Below, one piece after another: positions 33,490-42,370 of a stretch of DNA of 64,000 nt. The position numbers were made by a program, and so were the translations under genes. Source of the stretch: Natrialba asiatica DSM 12278 (GTDB lineage Archaea; Halobacteriota; Halobacteria; Halobacteriales; Natrialbaceae); contig NZ_AOIO01000040.1 of assembly GCF_000337555.1 (NCBI RefSeq), positions 124,001 through 188,000 of the forward strand, in the 5' to 3' direction. A model generated the notes under the pieces. That model did not search any database and had not been told where the DNA came from. It was given only the letters and a program-made list of their open reading frames with translations. The first letter of the stretch is position 1. Each line of letters opens with the position of its first letter.

Positions 33490-34599
33490 TCACTCGCCCT
33501 CATCGCGCCACGAATCCGGAACGTCAATCACGTATCGACCGTCCTCCTGCAACGAAATGATGTACTCCTCCCGGTTGTACAACTCCATTAGATTGAGTTC
33601 GTACTGCCCGGGCTGGACGATCTTGATACTCTCGAACTGCTTGTTGAGTTCTTCCCGCAGTTCCTCCATCGACGGGGTCTCTCCCGTCGGTTCACTGACG
33701 ACACGTCCGTGACCCGGTGACCCTTCGGCAGCCGCCTGTGCATCGCCGGAAGGCGAATCTGTCGCGGGAGCCGAACCCGGTCCCGGTCCCGGACCCGAAC
33801 CCGATGCCGGCGGCGATGTCGAATCGCTGGGCGAAGACGGGGACGGATCCGATTCGGACGGCGCTGTCGACCCGGTCGGCAACTCGTCCGTCGCAACCAC
33901 CTCGCTCCTGGCGTCCGACTGCGCCGTATTCTCGCTGTCCGCCATCGTCACCCGACTCGGACCTGCACTCGAAGTTGAACTCGAACCCGAACTCGTCTCC
34001 GTGTCTGCAGCCGCGGCCGAACGCGACTTCACATCCGAGCTCGAACTCGAGCTCGAACTCGAACTCGAGTCCGATTCATCACCGCGCTCGCCCTCCGGAC
34101 CCGTCGATCGGTCTTCAGGACGGCGAGCAGTATCGGGCCACTCCTCGAACGACCCGAGTTCACCCGACTCCGCTGTCTCCGCCGTCTCCGCTGACGAGTT
34201 CCCATCTGAACTCGCATCTGCAGCCGCTGTCTCGGATGCGGAAGGAGAGGAAGAGGAGGACCCGGTAGACGGCCACGCCGGCGACTCGTCGACCGACGCA
34301 TCCGCTTCGTCTCTCGAAACCCAATCACGGACGGTTTCTGCGGCGCGAGAGGTCATTCCGCTGGAATCGGATTCTGATTCCACCCCCGATTTCGACGCCG
34401 ACTTCGACTCCGATCCCGTCTTCACAGAGTCGGATGGCTGCTCCGCCGCCGAGTTCCGGCCGGCGCTCGAATCCGCGGACCCCATCGCCGACGACGGCGT
34501 AAACTGAAACTTGTTCCCGTTGCAGTCGGGACAACCCGAGAGCATCTCCTTGGAGCCATCGGGAAACGTCCGACCGCAGTTTGTGCATTCGTGTGGCAT
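33490..34599 (-). CDS. origin-associated zinc-ribbon protein with long acidic linker
   Basis: 369 residues. An N-terminal zinc ribbon (C-T-N-C-G, residues 4-8, and C-P-D-C-N, ~22-26) is followed by ~255 residues of Ser/Asp/Glu/Pro low-complexity sequence and a conserved C-terminal domain (~300-369: E-E-L-R-E-E-L-N-K-Q-F, G-Q-Y-E-L-N-L-M-E-L-Y, Y-V-I-D-V-P). It is the third gene of the operon facing away from oriC after the GTPase and DUF2073, the set called origin-associated proteins (oapA/B/C) in haloarchaea; letter assignment is not certain. The linker is presumably disordered. Its role in replication is unproven. Confidence 0.8.
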   Translation of the reverse strand: MPHECTNCGRTFPDGSKEMLSGCPDCNGNKFQFTPSSAMGSADSSAGRNSAAEQPSDSVKTGSESKSASKSGVESESDSSGMTSRAAETVRDWVSRDEADASVDESPAWPSTGSSSSSPSASETAAADASSDGNSSAETAETAESGELGSFEEWPDTARRPEDRSTGPEGERGDESDSSSSSSSSSSSDVKSRSAAAADTETSSGSSSTSSAGPSRVTMADSENTAQSDARSEVVATDELPTGSTAPSESDPSPSSPSDSTSPPASGSGPGPGPGSAPATDSPSGDAQAAAEGSPGHGRVVSEPTGETPSMEELREELNKQFESIKIVQPGQYELNLMELYNREEYIISLQEDGRYVIDVPDSWRDEGE

Positions 34600-34605
34600 G
34601 AGTTT

Positions 34606-35013
34606 CTAATCACGGGAGACGAGCGCGCTGATCAGCGTTTCGTCCTTGTGTAGGGTCTCGATCTGGTTTGCCGGTCCGATTACCGTCAACTTCGTCTCCG
34701 ACTCGTTGTTACCCATGATCCGGCCGAGCAACGACGAATCGCGCGTCTCCGATTTCGGATACGTCTCGATCTCGATTCCGTTGAACTCGTCCGGGCTGAT
34801 TTCCGACATCGTCACCTCGATGAGGCGACTCTCCTCGTCGGGCGTCAACCCTTCTTCCAGGATAACGATGTTGCCATCGTGAACGCCATCGAGGATCATC
34901 CGAATCTTCTCCATCGTCGCCATATTGTCCATTCGCTCGCCGCTGATGAGATCGATCTGGACACCGTCAGAGTCCGGGGAGTCCGAGTCGTCCGCGTTAG
35001 TAGCCTCTGGCAT
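34606..35013 (-). CDS. DUF2073 family origin-associated protein
   Basis: 135 residues: an acidic N-terminal ~17, then I-S-G-E-R-M-D-N-M-A-T-M-E-K-I-R-M-I and V-H-D-G-N-I-V-I-L-E-E-G-L, and a C-terminal beta strand run G-N-N-E-S-E-T-K-L-T-V-I-G. The family is archaeal and nearly always encoded between the Era-like GTPase and the zinc-ribbon protein. It starts 6 bp after the GTPase stop and ends 6 bp before the zinc-ribbon ATG, so the three are one transcription unit. Biochemical function unknown. Confidence 0.88.
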   Translation of the reverse strand: MPEATNADDSDSPDSDGVQIDLISGERMDNMATMEKIRMILDGVHDGNIVILEEGLTPDEESRLIEVTMSEISPDEFNGIEIETYPKSETRDSSLLGRIMGNNESETKLTVIGPANQIETLHKDETLISALVSRD

Positions 35014-35019
35014 AGGCGA

Positions 35020-35658
35020 TCACCCGAAGTACTCCGCGATCGAGTCGTACACTTCGTCCATGTTGTCGCCTTCCTTTGCCGACAGCGGGATCGTCTTGTG
35101 CTGTGGGAAGGCGTCTTCGATCCGTTTGATGCTCGACTCGTCGAGATCGATCTTGTTCGCGAAGATGAGCACCGGCAGATCGCGAGATTCGATGATACCA
35201 ATCAACATTGTGTTGACCTGGGTGATCGGATCCTCCGCGCTATCGAGCACGTAGATGACGCCGTCGACGTCCTCTCGAAGCCAATGCATCGCCTCGGCGA
35301 CGCCTTCGGTCGCCTCTCGCGAACGGCGGATGGCATCGTCTTCTTCCATCTCGTCGGTAAACTCCTCGTAATCGACCTTCGTCGTCACACCGGGCGTGTC
35401 GACGATATCGATTGTCACCGTCTTGCCGTCGCGTTCGATCTCGACGTTTTCTTTCCTTCGCGCGCGCCGCGTTTCGTGTGGAACGTGGCTTTCGGTCCCG
35501 ATCGCATCGCCAGTCCAGTCGCGGGCGATTCGATTCGCGAGCGTCGTCTTTCCAGCGTTCGGCGGACCATAGATACCGATTCGTTTGGGTTCCTGTTCGG
35601 AGAACAGGCGGTCCGTAACCCGAGAGATACTATCTTTGAGTTCTGTGAACAGTCCCAT
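35020..35658 (-). CDS. Era-like origin-associated GTPase
   Basis: A 212-residue small GTPase with all G motifs: G1 G-P-P-N-A-G-K-T (residues ~30-37), G3 D-T-P-G, G4 N-K-I-D and G5 S-A-K. The effector loop lacks a strong match to bacterial Era, and the KH domain of Era is absent, so it is not a ribosome-assembly Era. It is the first gene of the operon next to oriC. The start at 35658 (M-G-L-F-T-E-L-K-D) is preferred to 19 upstream codons. The promoter is in the origin region. A role linking replication to another signal is suggested only by position. Confidence 0.9.
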   Translation of the reverse strand: MGLFTELKDSISRVTDRLFSEQEPKRIGIYGPPNAGKTTLANRIARDWTGDAIGTESHVPHETRRARRKENVEIERDGKTVTIDIVDTPGVTTKVDYEEFTDEMEEDDAIRRSREATEGVAEAMHWLREDVDGVIYVLDSAEDPITQVNTMLIGIIESRDLPVLIFANKIDLDESSIKRIEDAFPQHKTIPLSAKEGDNMDEVYDSIAEYFG

Positions 35659-36003: not shown

Positions 36004-36038
36004 GTCCCCTCCCCCACCCCTCCGTTTCAACTGGAGAG
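36004..36038 (-). repeat. ORB box with C/G-string, left side of oriC
   Basis: The core cctccgtttcaactggagag (36019-36038) is preceded by a C-rich run ccctcccccacc, which on the minus strand is the ORB followed by its G-string. It is in inverted orientation to the box at 36339. ORBs are Orc1/Cdc6 binding sites in archaea. Confidence 0.8.
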
Positions 36039-36082
36039 TTCCGAGAGAAGACGGCGATCTCGATAGCTGAGAGCGAAGAGAG

Positions 36083-36101
36083 GCCTTCGTTTCACCTCGA
36101 A
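36083..36101 (-). repeat. mini-ORB in oriC
   Basis: The sequence gccttcgtttcacctcgaa keeps the central ttcgtttca and the closing ctcgaa half of the ORB but has no G-string. It has the same orientation as the box at 36004. Confidence 0.55.
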
Positions 36102-36149
36102 CGATAGTTTGAGCCGATCTTCGTGCGGAATAGCCGGAAACTGACTACT

Positions 36150-36306
36150 CTAGTAACAGAGAATGGTTCTCTAGTAGAGCAGGCCACTAGAGAACAGCAG
36201 TCTAGTTACATCTAGTAATATCCTCAGACTCCCTAGTAAAATGAAACTAGCTGCTAGTGGTACGGACCGTATTTCTCACCCACCAACATAAATCCCTGCC
36301 CTCTAG
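36150..36306. repeat. CTAG tetranucleotide cluster, candidate DUE
   Basis: Nine CTAG sites start at 36150, 36171, 36187, 36202, 36212, 36233, 36247, 36254 and 36303. Elsewhere in this window CTAG is sparse (about one per several kb by eye). The tract is AT-rich and bounded by inverted ORBs, so it is the likely unwinding core. Confidence 0.75.
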
Positions 36307-36338
36307 ATAACCCCCTCCCCACCCCACCCGTTGTAACA

Positions 36339-36370
36339 GTTCCACTTGAAACGAAGGGGTGGGGGGGGGA
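36339..36370 (+). repeat. ORB box with G-string, right side of oriC
   Basis: The core gttccacttgaaacgaagg continues into ggtggggggggat. It is the inverted partner of the box at 36004, enclosing the CTAG tract. The G-string directly follows the ORB, as in haloarchaeal origins. Confidence 0.85.
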
Positions 36371-36804: not shown

Positions 36805-38796
36805 ATGTCAGACGACGAAATGGACCGAACGAGTTCGGAGACAGTTACAGAGCGGGATGGAACCGAGAACGACGAGTCCGCATCCAATTCGGGTTCTCAT
36901 GCCGATATCGATACCGATACCGCGTCCGAGGCCGATGCTGATCCCGATATCGATCCACACGCCGAATCCGACTCCGCGGTCGATTCCGATCCCGCTTCCA
37001 CTGCTGCTTCGGACCGGCGCGAGAGTCCGAGAACAAACGGAGAGCACTCAGACGTTGGTTCCGAGCACGGCCAGCGCTCACCGTCTGCGGATGCAGAAAC
37101 ACGCACGCAGGCACAATCACAGTCACAATCATCGCCACAGTCACGACCGGATACCACCGAACCCGATCGAACGCACGGATTTTCTAACTTGCCGGACACC
37201 GAACTCGGGGACGGCGAAGACGAGGGCGATTCGAACCAAGGGCTGTTCGACGATCTACTGAGTGGTGAACCCATCTTCGAGAACAAAGAGGTTCTGCGGC
37301 CGTCCTACACGCCCCACGAACTCCCGCATCGAAGCGACCAGATCAACAAGATGGCGACGATTCTGGTCGCCGCACTTCGCGGGGAAACGCCGTCGAACAT
37401 CCTCATATACGGCAAAACCGGGACAGGCAAGACCGCAAGCGCGAAATTCGTCAGCAAAGAACTCGAGAGCACGTCCCAGAAGTACAGCGTGCCCTGTGAT
37501 GTCGAGTACATCAACTGCGAGGTAACCGACACGCAGTATCGAGTTCTCGCCCAGCTCGCGAACAAGTTCATCGAAAAGAACAAAGCTCGGATCGACGACC
37601 GGATCGATTCACTCGATGCGTTGCTCGATCGTATCGAGGCGTACGAGAACGATGAACAGACCTCTATTTCAAATCGAACTAATTCTTCTGAAGCAGCCCC
37701 GCCCAGTGGGGATACTGGGTCACGTCCAGGTGAAGGAACGGGGTACGATTCGACGAATGATCCGGCGACGGATTCGATTGCTGGCTCGGCCTCTACAGCG
37801 GACGATCACCAGCCCCAGTCCACTGCCCACCCCCTCAATGGAACCGAATTCGACTCGGTCGACGCGGTCGAAACACGGATCGAATCCCTGGAAGCGGACA
37901 AGGAATCCTTCGAAGAGGTCCCGATGACTGGCTGGCCGACAGACCGCGTCTACAGCGTCTTTTTCGACGCCGTCGACTACGACGAACGGGTCGTCGTCAT
38001 CATGCTAGACGAGATCGACAAACTCGTCGAGAAAAGCGGTGACGATACCCTGTATAACCTCTCTCGGATGAACTCCGAACTCGAGAACTCACGCGTTTCG
38101 ATCATCGGCATTTCGAACGACCTCAAGTTCACGGACTTTCTCGATCCGCGCGTCAAATCCTCGCTCGGCGAGGAAGAGATCGTCTTTCCGCCCTACGACG
38201 CAAACCAGTTGCGAGACATCCTCCAGCACCGCTCCGAGGTCGCGTTCAAGGACAATGCGCTCTCTTCGGACGTGATTCCGCTGTGTGCCGCCTTCGCTGC
38301 ACAGGAACACGGGGATGCCCGCCGCGCCCTCGACTTGCTCCGGACCGCCGGTGAACTCGCAGAGCGCGCCCAGGCGGAGACGGTCGTCGAAGAACACGTC
38401 CGCAAGGCCCAGGACAAAATCGAACTCGACCGCGTCGTCGAGGTCGTGCGCACGTTACCGACGCAGAGCAAACTCGTCCTCTTTTCGATCATTCTGCTCG
38501 AGAAAAACGGCGTTCACAGCATCAACACGGGCGAGGTGTTCAACATCTACAAGCGCCTCTGCGAGGAGATCGACGCCGACGTGCTCACCCAACGGCGGGT
38601 GACCGATCTTATCAGTGAACTCGACATGCTCGGTATCGTCAATGCCGTCGTCGTCTCGAAGGGGCGATACGGGCGGACAAAGGAAATCAGTCTCTCGGTG
38701 CCGATCGACGAGACGGAAGCTGTCTTGCTCTCCGACTCCCGACTTTCCGACATCGACGACATTCAGCCGTTCGTTCAGGCGCGGTTCGAGAACTGA
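36805..38796 (+). CDS. orc1: Orc1/Cdc6 replication initiator
   Basis: 663 residues, long for the family (~400-550). An acidic N-terminal tail of ~145 residues (Asp/Glu/Ser/Thr-rich, D-I-D-T-D-T, D-A-D-P-D-I-D-P-H) is followed by the AAA+ domain with Walker A G-K-T-G-T-G-K-T (~residue 203) and Walker B M-L-D-E-I-D-K-L. An acidic/polar insertion sits at ~285-345. The C-terminal winged-helix domain that reads the ORB is intact to the end. It binds the adjacent ORBs and loads MCM. The divergent position to the GTPase operon across oriC marks this as the origin-linked copy. Confidence 0.96.
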   Translation: MSDDEMDRTSSETVTERDGTENDESASNSGSHADIDTDTASEADADPDIDPHAESDSAVDSDPASTAASDRRESPRTNGEHSDVGSEHGQRSPSADAETRTQAQSQSQSSPQSRPDTTEPDRTHGFSNLPDTELGDGEDEGDSNQGLFDDLLSGEPIFENKEVLRPSYTPHELPHRSDQINKMATILVAALRGETPSNILIYGKTGTGKTASAKFVSKELESTSQKYSVPCDVEYINCEVTDTQYRVLAQLANKFIEKNKARIDDRIDSLDALLDRIEAYENDEQTSISNRTNSSEAAPPSGDTGSRPGEGTGYDSTNDPATDSIAGSASTADDHQPQSTAHPLNGTEFDSVDAVETRIESLEADKESFEEVPMTGWPTDRVYSVFFDAVDYDERVVVIMLDEIDKLVEKSGDDTLYNLSRMNSELENSRVSIIGISNDLKFTDFLDPRVKSSLGEEEIVFPPYDANQLRDILQHRSEVAFKDNALSSDVIPLCAAFAAQEHGDARRALDLLRTAGELAERAQAETVVEEHVRKAQDKIELDRVVEVVRTLPTQSKLVLFSIILLEKNGVHSINTGEVFNIYKRLCEEIDADVLTQRRVTDLISELDMLGIVNAVVVSKGRYGRTKEISLSVPIDETEAVLLSDSRLSDIDDIQPFVQARFEN

Positions 38797-40783: not shown

Positions 40784-42370
40784 GTGCCACTCGAAGGGGC
40801 AGCCAGGATCGTCAGCGAACTCACGAGCCGCGGGTACAACGCCGAGCGGGAGGCCGTTACGAAGATCGCATCGGCTGAGAATCCGCCCGCGGTGCTCGAC
40901 CGCGTCGTCGACGAACTGCCGGCAGACGCGCTCGTCGTTCGAACTGCCCACGTCGATGCGGTCCTGACGGCCGCGACACACCCCTCGACGGCGAACGAAC
41001 GGGGTCGTCCGTCCGAACCGCTCGACTCGAAACAGGGGCCCACTCGGAACGGAACACAACCCTCCGCTTCAACTGGAGTAAATACAGCCGATATACACGA
41101 TTCTGCGGGCGTTTCTCCAGTTGAAACAGGGGGGTCTCAAGTCGAGCGAGAGGTCGACCTCTCGAAGCGGTCGCTCGAAATCGCCGGTGACATGACCGGC
41201 CAGAGCACGGGGACCGGCGCGTACGAGGATTTCGTGTCCGTCTTTCGGGATCGACTCGACCGACTCGGCGGCAAGCTCCGCGGCCGGGTCAATCACCGCC
41301 CCGCGACGGCCATCCAGAGCATGCCGGGCGGGAGCGAGGCCGGGATGGTCGGACTGGTCAACGATATCCGCTCGACCGCAAGCGGCCACTGGCTGATCGA
41401 ACTCGAAGACGCGACGGGGACCTTTCCGTGGCTCGTGATGAAGGATCGAGAGTTCGCCGATCTGGTCGATCAGTTGCTCTGCGACGAGGTGCTGGCGATG
41501 GAGGGAACGCTCTCGGACGACGCGGGCATCGCGTTCGTCGATTCGCTGTATTTCCCCGACGTACCCCGCACGCACGAGCCGTCGACGGCTGATCGCCACG
41601 TCCAAGCGGCGTTGATCAGCGACGTCCACGTCGGCAGCCAGGAGTTCATGACCGACGCCTGGAACGCCTTCGCCGACTGGCTGCATACGGAACAGGCCCA
41701 GCACGTCGAGTACCTGTTACTTGCGGGCGACATGGTCGAAGGGGTCGGGGTCTATCCGGATCAGGACGATGAACTCGATATCGTCGACATCTACGAGCAG
41801 TACGAGGCGTTCAACGAGCACCTCAAGCGGGTGCCCGGCGATCTGGATATCGTGATGATTCCGGGCAACCACGACGCGGTTCGGCTGGCGGAACCGCAGC
41901 CGGGCTTCGATGAGAAACTCCGAGACACTATGTCGGCACACGATCCGCAGATCGTGAGCAATCCGTCGATGGTGACGGTCGAGGGCGTCTCCATCCTGAT
42001 GTATCACGGCGTCTCGCTGGACGAGGTAATCGCTGAACTCCCGGAGGAGAAAGCGAGTTACGAGGAACCGCACAAGGCGATGTACCAGTTGCTCAAGAAA
42101 CGCCACGTCGCGCCGCAGTTCGGGGGGCATACGAGACTCGCCCCCGAGGAGAAAGATTACCTCGTCATGGACGAGGTACCCGACATCTTCCACACCGGCC
42201 ACGTCCACAAGCTCGGCTTCGGGAAGTATCACAACGTGCTCGCGATCAACTCGGGCTGTTGGCAGGCCCAGACCGAGTTCCAGAAGAGCGTCAACATCGA
42301 TCCCGACTCCGGCTACGCGCCGATCGTCGACCTCGATACGCTCGACGTGACGGTTCAGAAGTTCAGTTGA
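40784..42370 (+). CDS. polD1: DNA polymerase D small subunit (DP1, exonuclease)
   Basis: 528 residues with a calcineurin-like phosphoesterase core: S-D-V-H-V-G-S, A-G-D-M-V-E-G, P-G-N-H-D-A, M-Y-H-G-V and H-T-G-H-V-H are the metal ligands of the 3'-5' proofreading nuclease. The N-terminal OB-like region and a ~60-residue linker (~75-130) precede it. The GTG at 40784 gives the family N-terminus P-L-E-G-A-A-R-I-V-S-E-L. It works with the large catalytic subunit DP2, which is not in the window. The linker DNA carries an inverted ORB pair at 41060-41135. Closeness to oriC fits a replication gene cluster. Confidence 0.95.
   Translation: MPLEGAARIVSELTSRGYNAEREAVTKIASAENPPAVLDRVVDELPADALVVRTAHVDAVLTAATHPSTANERGRPSEPLDSKQGPTRNGTQPSASTGVNTADIHDSAGVSPVETGGSQVEREVDLSKRSLEIAGDMTGQSTGTGAYEDFVSVFRDRLDRLGGKLRGRVNHRPATAIQSMPGGSEAGMVGLVNDIRSTASGHWLIELEDATGTFPWLVMKDREFADLVDQLLCDEVLAMEGTLSDDAGIAFVDSLYFPDVPRTHEPSTADRHVQAALISDVHVGSQEFMTDAWNAFADWLHTEQAQHVEYLLLAGDMVEGVGVYPDQDDELDIVDIYEQYEAFNEHLKRVPGDLDIVMIPGNHDAVRLAEPQPGFDEKLRDTMSAHDPQIVSNPSMVTVEGVSILMYHGVSLDEVIAELPEEKASYEEPHKAMYQLLKKRHVAPQFGGHTRLAPEEKDYLVMDEVPDIFHTGHVHKLGFGKYHNVLAINSGCWQAQTEFQKSVNIDPDSGYAPIVDLDTLDVTVQKFS
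41060..41135. repeat. inverted ORB-like pair inside the polD1 coding sequence
   Basis: The left box ccctccgcttcaactggagt (41060-41079) and the right box tctccagttgaaacaggggg (41114-41133) are inverted copies with matching G-strings facing outward, 34 bp apart. Both match the oriC core. The intervening bases are AT-richer (atatacacga). The encoded protein region is a non-conserved linker. Confidence 0.75.

Follow-up and report, generated by a model that had tools for sequence, protein, structure and literature searches.

CTAG clusters upstream of haloarchaeal orc1/cdc6 genes were described by Blow et al. (2016) and correlated with a conserved orphan m4C methyltransferase, for which a role in replication was proposed (PMC4752239, Fig. 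6D; the motif is printed as CATG in the main text and as CTAG in the legend). Ouellette et al. (2018) assigned the m4C at CTAG in H. volcanii to HVO_0794 and reported high CTAG density near oriC2 only; cells without methylation showed no growth defect, and this species tolerates loss of its origins (PMC5867850). For Haloarcula marismortui and Haloferax mediterranei, m4C at CTAG was measured by DasSarma et al. (2019), who called its function unknown (PMC6606915), and Fullmer et al. (2019) left the function of CTAG methylation open (PMC6471742). In Haloferax lucertense, unmethylated CTAG sites concentrate in low-GC regions (PMC11001535). Both the CTAG density at haloarchaeal oriC and the hypothesis of a methyltransferase role are thus already known.

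Two other origins offer close comparisons. In the oriC of E. coli, the GATC/Dam/SeqA system combines an orphan methyltransferase with dense sites within or beside the unwinding region. In Sulfolobus, the protein UBP binds an essential motif (ucm) inside the DNA unwinding element of oriC1 (PMC12141716). The canonical haloarchaeal oriC1 consists of an ORB-flanked core in an oapA-B-C/orc1 setting (PMC3528665, PMC3936714), and origin plasmid assays exist for Haloarcula and Natrinema (PMC3936714, PMC5350488).

Here we analyse a 64,000-nucleotide stretch of the Natrialba asiatica DSM 12278 genome (the window), together with the oriC1 regions of its relatives. Relative to the literature covered, several features appear to be new: the confinement of the CTAG sites to the origin core, their specificity against neighbouring tetranucleotides, a phased, oriented array that keeps register with the ORBs on either side, a natural separation of orc1 from the array, and a phylogenetic qualification of the methyltransferase correlation.

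Results

A CTAG cluster in the core of oriC1

The cluster sits in a 1.1-kb intergenic region with oapA, oapB and oapC on one side and orc1/cdc6 on the other, a noncoding position upstream of the initiator gene that matches the clusters described in 2016. On the minus strand lie oapC (33490-34599, Pfam OapC), oapB (34606-35013, Pfam OapB) and oapA, which encodes a GTPase (35020-35658, the likely start being an internal ATG, as judged from the sequence). The oriC1-linked orc1/cdc6 gene is on the plus strand (36805-38796, Pfam Cdc6_C and Cdc6_lid). Pattern matching located a left ORB with an outward G-string (36006-36034, minus strand; CCCCTCCCCCACCCCTCCGTTTCAACTGG on the plus strand) and a right ORB with a G-string (GTTCCACTTGAAACGAAGGGGTGGGGGGGGG, 36339-36369, plus strand), which delimit an inter-ORB core at 36035-36341; an inner ORB-like element without a G-string was recognised by eye (CCTTCGTTTCACCTCGAAC, 36084-36102, minus strand). 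Inverted G-string ORBs flanking a weak core that adjoins orc1/cdc6 and the oap genes identify the locus as oriC1, and the oapA-B-C/orc1 synteny is that of the minimal oriC1 of Haloarcula hispanica (PMC3936714).

Eight CTAG sites fall within 108 bp (36150-36257) and nine within 157 bp (to 36306), with starts at 36150, 36171, 36187, 36202, 36212, 36233, 36247, 36254 and 36303. The preliminary description had given these counts and this range, had placed the cluster between inverted ORBs and had called CTAG rare elsewhere in the window; all three statements hold. The two G-string ORBs bracket all nine sites, and the 64 kb contain only 28 CTAG where dinucleotide shuffles predict 81.6, with 19 of the 28 spread across the 63.8 kb outside the cluster. 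Shuffling the 108-bp stretch 5000 times with its dinucleotides preserved gave a maximum of seven CTAG (mean 3.0), below the eight observed, and composition shuffles reached at most four (mean 0.4). When strand-merged 4-mers of the window were compared for local clustering, CTAG was the strongest, at 169-fold over its own mean density, and the runner-up reached 66-fold. A pattern search of the whole 4.4 Mb genome found at least three CTAG inside 72 bp at a handful of loci only, the two densest being the window cluster and C25:28645-28706, both near orc genes.

The eight CTAG of the latter locus (G000:C25:28645-28706) span 62 bp and show partial inverted symmetry; they lie some 0.7 kb upstream of another orc gene, whose product has 427 aa. 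A G-string ORB was looked for at this cluster and none was found. Another CTAG cluster (G000:C23:114063-114109) is located away from orc genes, between a sugar-nucleotide transferase-like gene and an HTH-protein gene.

Comparison of oriC1 cores also revealed a conserved block with the order-wide consensus TRCGGATAYTGTTT, present here as TACGGACCGTATTTCT (36260-36276, plus strand). Its usual distance from the right ORB is about 80-97 bp across most families, in many with 0-2 mismatches, and a degenerate form is seen in a number of genera of Haloferacaceae (Halorubrum, g42, g43 and g52). It is a core element without description in the literature covered. Elsewhere in the window, 2 kb downstream of orc1, a plus-strand gene (40784-42370) encodes a DNA polymerase alpha/epsilon subunit B domain and a calcineurin-like phosphoesterase domain, and its product is likely the PolD small subunit. 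Relatives of the window Orc1 were sought on viral contigs and none were found.

CTAG enrichment in oriC1 cores across the order

Sampling of 213 genomes of the order yielded about 180 oriC1 regions, and the inter-ORB core was obtained in 171; 4-mer enrichment was computed with equal weight per genus. CTAG was the top over-represented core 4-mer in eight of the nine methyltransferase-positive family groups (f1, which is Natrialbaceae, f2, the methyltransferase-positive part of f3, f4, f5, f7, f9 and f11) and third in the ninth. Pooled cores contained 209.6 CTAG against 66.9 expected, about 3.1x, and core CTAG exceeded expectation in 51 of 55 methyltransferase-positive genera. None of the one-base neighbours was enriched (CAAG/CTTG 0.40, CTAA/TTAG 0.55, CCAG/CTGG 0.56, CTAC/GTAG 0.74, ATAG/CTAT 0.82, CGAG/CTCG 1.06). 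The preliminary description had held that an absence of this density from close relatives would count against it; instead, the cluster is found in most families of the order. Dense clusters occur in Haloarcula and Natrinema, and the sampled Haloferax relatives carry just 1-3 CTAG in the oriC1 core. Outside Natrialbaceae, the families have CTAG alone in common, their flanks show little consensus and phasing is absent; in f2, taken as Haloarculaceae and compared here with the H. hispanica origin, the clusters are dense yet unphased. This sharing of CTAG across families without its flank favours the recognition unit of the methyltransferase as what is selected.

Could the cluster simply be where a shunned word collects? 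CTAG purged from coding DNA might gather, without function, in AT-richer noncoding DNA, and the depletion within orc1 coding DNA (0.20x, or 0.22 sites per kb) is what such passive accumulation would leave behind. The flanking intergenic controls led us to reject this explanation: flanking noncoding DNA stands at 0.77x and 1.03x (1.5-1.6 per kb), whereas the core stands at 3.15x (16.2 per kb). We consider accumulation of this kind scarcely credible.

A second alternative, raised in the preliminary description, is that the CTAG steps are merely weak, so that the cluster amounts to a low-stability segment between the ORBs, a plain DNA unwinding element. Its location agrees: in a nearest-neighbour profile of the intergenic region between oapA and orc1, the 100 bp of lowest stability, a putative unwinding element, are 36150-36249, on the cluster itself. 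CTAG is moreover the least stable of eight four-letter palindromes (-3.14 kcal/mol), and the least stable 40-bp core windows of 78 genomes hold 126 CTAG against 69 expected. What weakness leaves unexplained is the choice of CTAG over other weak 4-mers, for sequences equally weak or weaker are not enriched (TTAA 0.44x, CTAA/TTAG 0.55x, GTAA 0.83x, TATA 1.03x). If any weak sequence served, CTAG would not stand at 3.1x beside weak neighbours at 0.4-1.06x; a word so rare in the genome would be an unlikely choice for weakness alone, and fixed spacing (see below) is not predicted. The absence of enrichment among one-base neighbours thus speaks against an unwinding element defined by AT-richness alone, an explanation that we regard as improbable. 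Since the least stable windows are CTAG-rich and the cluster lies on the least stable DNA, unwinding and CTAG recognition appear to be superposed. The same superposition of unwinding and methylation-motif recognition is seen in E. coli oriC. Taken together, the genome comparisons give good support to the cluster being a cis-element under selection, specific for CTAG, in the unwinding region of haloarchaeal oriC1.

A phased and oriented array in Natrialbaceae

In 34 array-bearing Natrialbaceae genomes, the CTAG sites form oriented TCTAGTAA repeats with a spacing of 31-10-21-21 bp, that is, at -31, 0, +10, +31 and +52, where 0 and +10 are the anchor by definition and phases are counted from there. 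Extra sites occur at -51, +73 or +101. In the window genome, seven of the nine CTAG occupy array positions (plus strand). Site A (TCTAGTA, 36171-36174) has phase -31, exactly so in 31 of the 34 genomes; sites B (TCTAGTTAC, 36202-36205) and C (TCTAGTAAT, 36212-36215) form the anchor at 0 and +10; site D (CCTAGTAAA, 36233-36236) has phase +31, a position held at +30 to +32 in all 34; and site E (GCTAGTGGTACGG, 36254-36257), at +52, abuts the conserved block and is found at +51/52 in 30 of 34. They are preceded by a site at -52 (TCTAGTAAC, 36150-36153), whose position is common to Natrinema (-51), and followed by the ninth CTAG at +101 (36303-36306), directly before a C-rich stretch; 16 of the 34 genomes have a site at +100 to +102. 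The two remaining CTAG, at -15 (36187-36190) and +45 (36247-36250), are out of phase and hold positions peculiar to the window genome among sampled Natrialbaceae. The same spacings recur in named Natrialba, Natrinema and Natronolimnohabitans records.

Column identity across Natrialbaceae was 0.91 for CTAG, 0.78 for the 3-base 3′ flank and 0.62 for the DNA between sites (0.91 versus 0.62, p 8e-9). Retention of site positions while the intervening DNA diverged is a further point against passive accumulation. The information in the TAA flank of TCTAGTAA is one-sided, at 0.65, 0.65 and 0.41 bits.

The array also keeps register with both ORBs. The distance from the anchor to the right ORB is 138-143 bp (SD 1.3), and the distance to the left ORB takes values of about 146, 157, 168, 178 or 199 bp, which are steps of 10.5 bp (R 0.85, less than 1/4000 under uniform spacing, although the genus-by-distance values are not wholly independent). 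This left-ORB distance class changed 13 times on the Orc1 tree, with every residual within 2 bp. Displacement of the left ORB in 10.5-bp steps indicates that the ORBs stay on the same face of the helix as the array. We rejected helical phasing as a general haloarchaeal trait: the mean cosine at 10.4 bp was 0.53 in Natrialbaceae and about zero elsewhere, and a periodicity of inter-ORB length, sought in each of the other families singly, was found in none. Iteron-like organisation, with oriented direct repeats at helical spacing, is accordingly found in Natrialbaceae only.

The oriented flank and the helical register suggest a binding protein besides the methyltransferase. In its strong form, this becomes an account that does without methylation: a protein recognises phased CTAG (TCTAGTAA in Natrialbaceae) and helps to bend or open the origin or to recruit the helicase, and the methyltransferase has an identical target by coincidence or for protection. 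Along with the one-sided TAA flank and the strict register with both ORBs, such an array would have a precedent in Sulfolobus, where UBP acts on an essential motif inside the unwinding element (PMC12141716). Families without flank consensus or phasing nevertheless show equally strong CTAG enrichment, and we judge a methylation-independent array rather unlikely, although it ranks second among the functions considered, behind methylation-sensitive gating of opening. Selection of the methyltransferase target and an additional binding protein may both be true together.

Natural rearrangements of oriC1

One genome of the Natrinema genus (G016) separates the array from the initiator gene. Its orc1 is 158 kb from oapB, and the array, with the 20-31-10-21-21 spacing typical of its genus, is still at oapA-B together with the paired ORBs; upstream of the translocated orc1 there is no CTAG array. 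This arrangement rules out that the cluster goes with orc1 or with the orc1 promoter, and it assigns the array to the ORB-flanked origin rather than to the gene.

The oriC1 neighbourhood is broken up in some Natrialbaceae, with orc1 and oapB 131-190 kb apart or more (G016 and genus g6); in Halovivax (g5), the orc1/oapB neighbourhood is rearranged within about 7 kb. Halovivax and g6 are apparent exceptions within the family, having no ORB pair upstream of orc1. At oapB both have almost no CTAG; Halovivax shows ORB-like elements there and g6 no clear ORB pair. The oriC1 of g6 may have been lost or moved.

The CTAG methyltransferase and its possible link to the cluster

The METHYLTRANSFERASE of this genome is a 359-residue protein (L025:1246-2325:-), so that a CTAG methyltransferase is encoded here. 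It shares 47% identity, across 96% of its length, with the methyltransferase of pFZ1, the source of M.MthZI. On pFZ1 the methyltransferase gene adjoins a MjaI-family restriction enzyme gene, and no restriction enzyme of the MjaI type occurs in this genome or in 59 of 61 family members. The enzyme is therefore an orphan with respect to MjaI-type enzymes, which bears out the conserved orphan CTAG methyltransferase of the preliminary description.

At least three core CTAG were present in 94 of 148 methyltransferase-positive genomes and in none of 18 methyltransferase-less genomes. Failure of the cluster to persist in any genome without the enzyme is a second point against the methylation-independent protein array. 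Fewer than three core CTAG were counted in the other 54 of the 148, including methyltransferase-positive Halorubrum, and methyltransferase-positive Halovivax has no CTAG cluster upstream of orc1. Within Haloferacaceae, the means of methyltransferase-positive and methyltransferase-less genera differ (p 0.014, not corrected for phylogeny). Independent contrasts between enzyme and cluster numbered three when restricted to supported branches and six on all branches; at a threshold of three CTAG none ran in the opposite direction, and none was significant.

The enzyme has been lost in 40 of 391 genomes, apparently all Haloferacaceae (half of the 40 were assigned from numbering), and one Halococcaceae draft also lacks it. 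With loss almost confined to Haloferacaceae, methyltransferase loss makes a weak natural experiment. In this family the core (CTAG and the TRCGGATAYTGTTT block) is often remodelled, even in methyltransferase-positive genera such as g43. In the genomes compared here, the published correlation of cluster and methyltransferase is consistent, yet weaker than it looks, because independent losses are few and several methyltransferase-positive genera have no cluster.

Three Halorubrum genomes (G153, G203 and G208) have the CTAG methyltransferase and lack the origin cluster. Their enzyme scores nearer to the Natrialbaceae enzyme than several other Haloferacaceae methyltransferases do, and it was possibly re-acquired horizontally.

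Discussion

The cluster described here shares motif, place, methyltransferase family and hypothesis with those of Blow et al. (PMC4752239). Whereas that study considered how dense CTAG is over 50 kb and how this correlates with the methyltransferase, the present comparison adds core confinement, the array, its register with the ORBs and the translocation of orc1.

We regard methylation-sensitive gating of origin opening as the most likely function of the CTAG cis-element, a tentative preference that falls just short of evenly balanced. Methylation of the oriC1 CTAG sites, a reader protein and an effect on initiation are steps that we infer. The m4C methyltransferase of this genome (M.MthZI/Zim/HVO_0794 type) would most likely methylate the oriC1 CTAG sites. 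Passage of a fork would leave several close-packed sites of the array hemimethylated at once, and in Natrialbaceae these would share one helix face with the ORBs. A methylation-dependent array-binding protein would then hinder or permit opening driven by Orc1/Cdc6, such that a fired origin would not be re-opened at once.

Several observations argue for this reading: the CTAG-specific enrichment and its confinement to the core, the sharing of CTAG between families without its flank, the conservation of CTAG columns in Natrialbaceae, the fixed spacing and the quantised left-ORB distance, the array left behind in the Natrinema rearrangement, the orphan methyltransferase, the distribution of clusters (0/18 versus 94/148), the uncorrected difference between genus means in Haloferacaceae, and the m4C measured at CTAG in Haloarcula and Haloferax (PMC6606915, PMC5867850). 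Against it stand the methyltransferase-positive genomes without a cluster (54/148, and Halovivax) together with the non-significant contrasts, the absence of a growth defect in methyltransferase-less H. volcanii (PMC5867850), and the TAA flank and phasing, which are superfluous for a methyltransferase with a 4-bp target. Undermethylation of low-GC CTAG in Haloferax lucertense (PMC11001535) suggests that the oriC1 sites might likewise be undermethylated. As a test of gating, the H. volcanii knockout is weak, since Haloferax relatives have 1-3 core CTAG and the origins are dispensable (PMC5867850).

The preliminary description had suggested a GATC/Dam/SeqA-like role. An orphan methyltransferase whose motif is enriched at the origin is what such a system would have, and the proposal is plausible insofar as the cluster is conserved and CTAG-specific; the few independent losses, the cluster-less methyltransferase-positive genomes and the TAA flank weigh against it. 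Neighbouring sites in Natrialbaceae lie 1-3 helical turns apart on one face, which resembles the site spacing used by SeqA. We know of no SeqA-like reader protein. The two systems differ in the modified base, m4C here and m6A in E. coli, in the global rarity of CTAG as opposed to the abundance of GATC, and in the lack of a growth defect when the methyltransferase is deleted in H. volcanii (PMC5867850).

The Sulfolobus ucm/UBP system resembles the present locus in having a sequence-specific element between inverted ORBs and separate from them, but it consists of a single element and involves no methylation (PMC12141716). By position, the TRCGGATAYTGTTT block beside the CTAG array would be the better analogue of ucm.

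In its most specific form, the model would make oriC1 the seat of an epigenetic clock, in which m4C on a phased CTAG array in the unwinding element is read by a predicted protein that lies on the helical face of ORB-bound Orc1/Cdc6 and delays re-initiation. Such a clock would have arisen independently of Dam/SeqA as its archaeal counterpart, with a different modified base; we consider it possible, if well short of probable.

The register between array and ORBs in Natrialbaceae is a structural constraint on the architecture of an archaeal origin complex. More broadly, the element bears on what keeps an archaeal origin from firing twice in a cycle, and the comparative data join this control and the function of haloarchaeal CTAG methylation into one concrete test, for which Haloarcula or Natrinema, with their dense clusters and plasmid origin assays (PMC3936714, PMC5350488), would be the right organisms.
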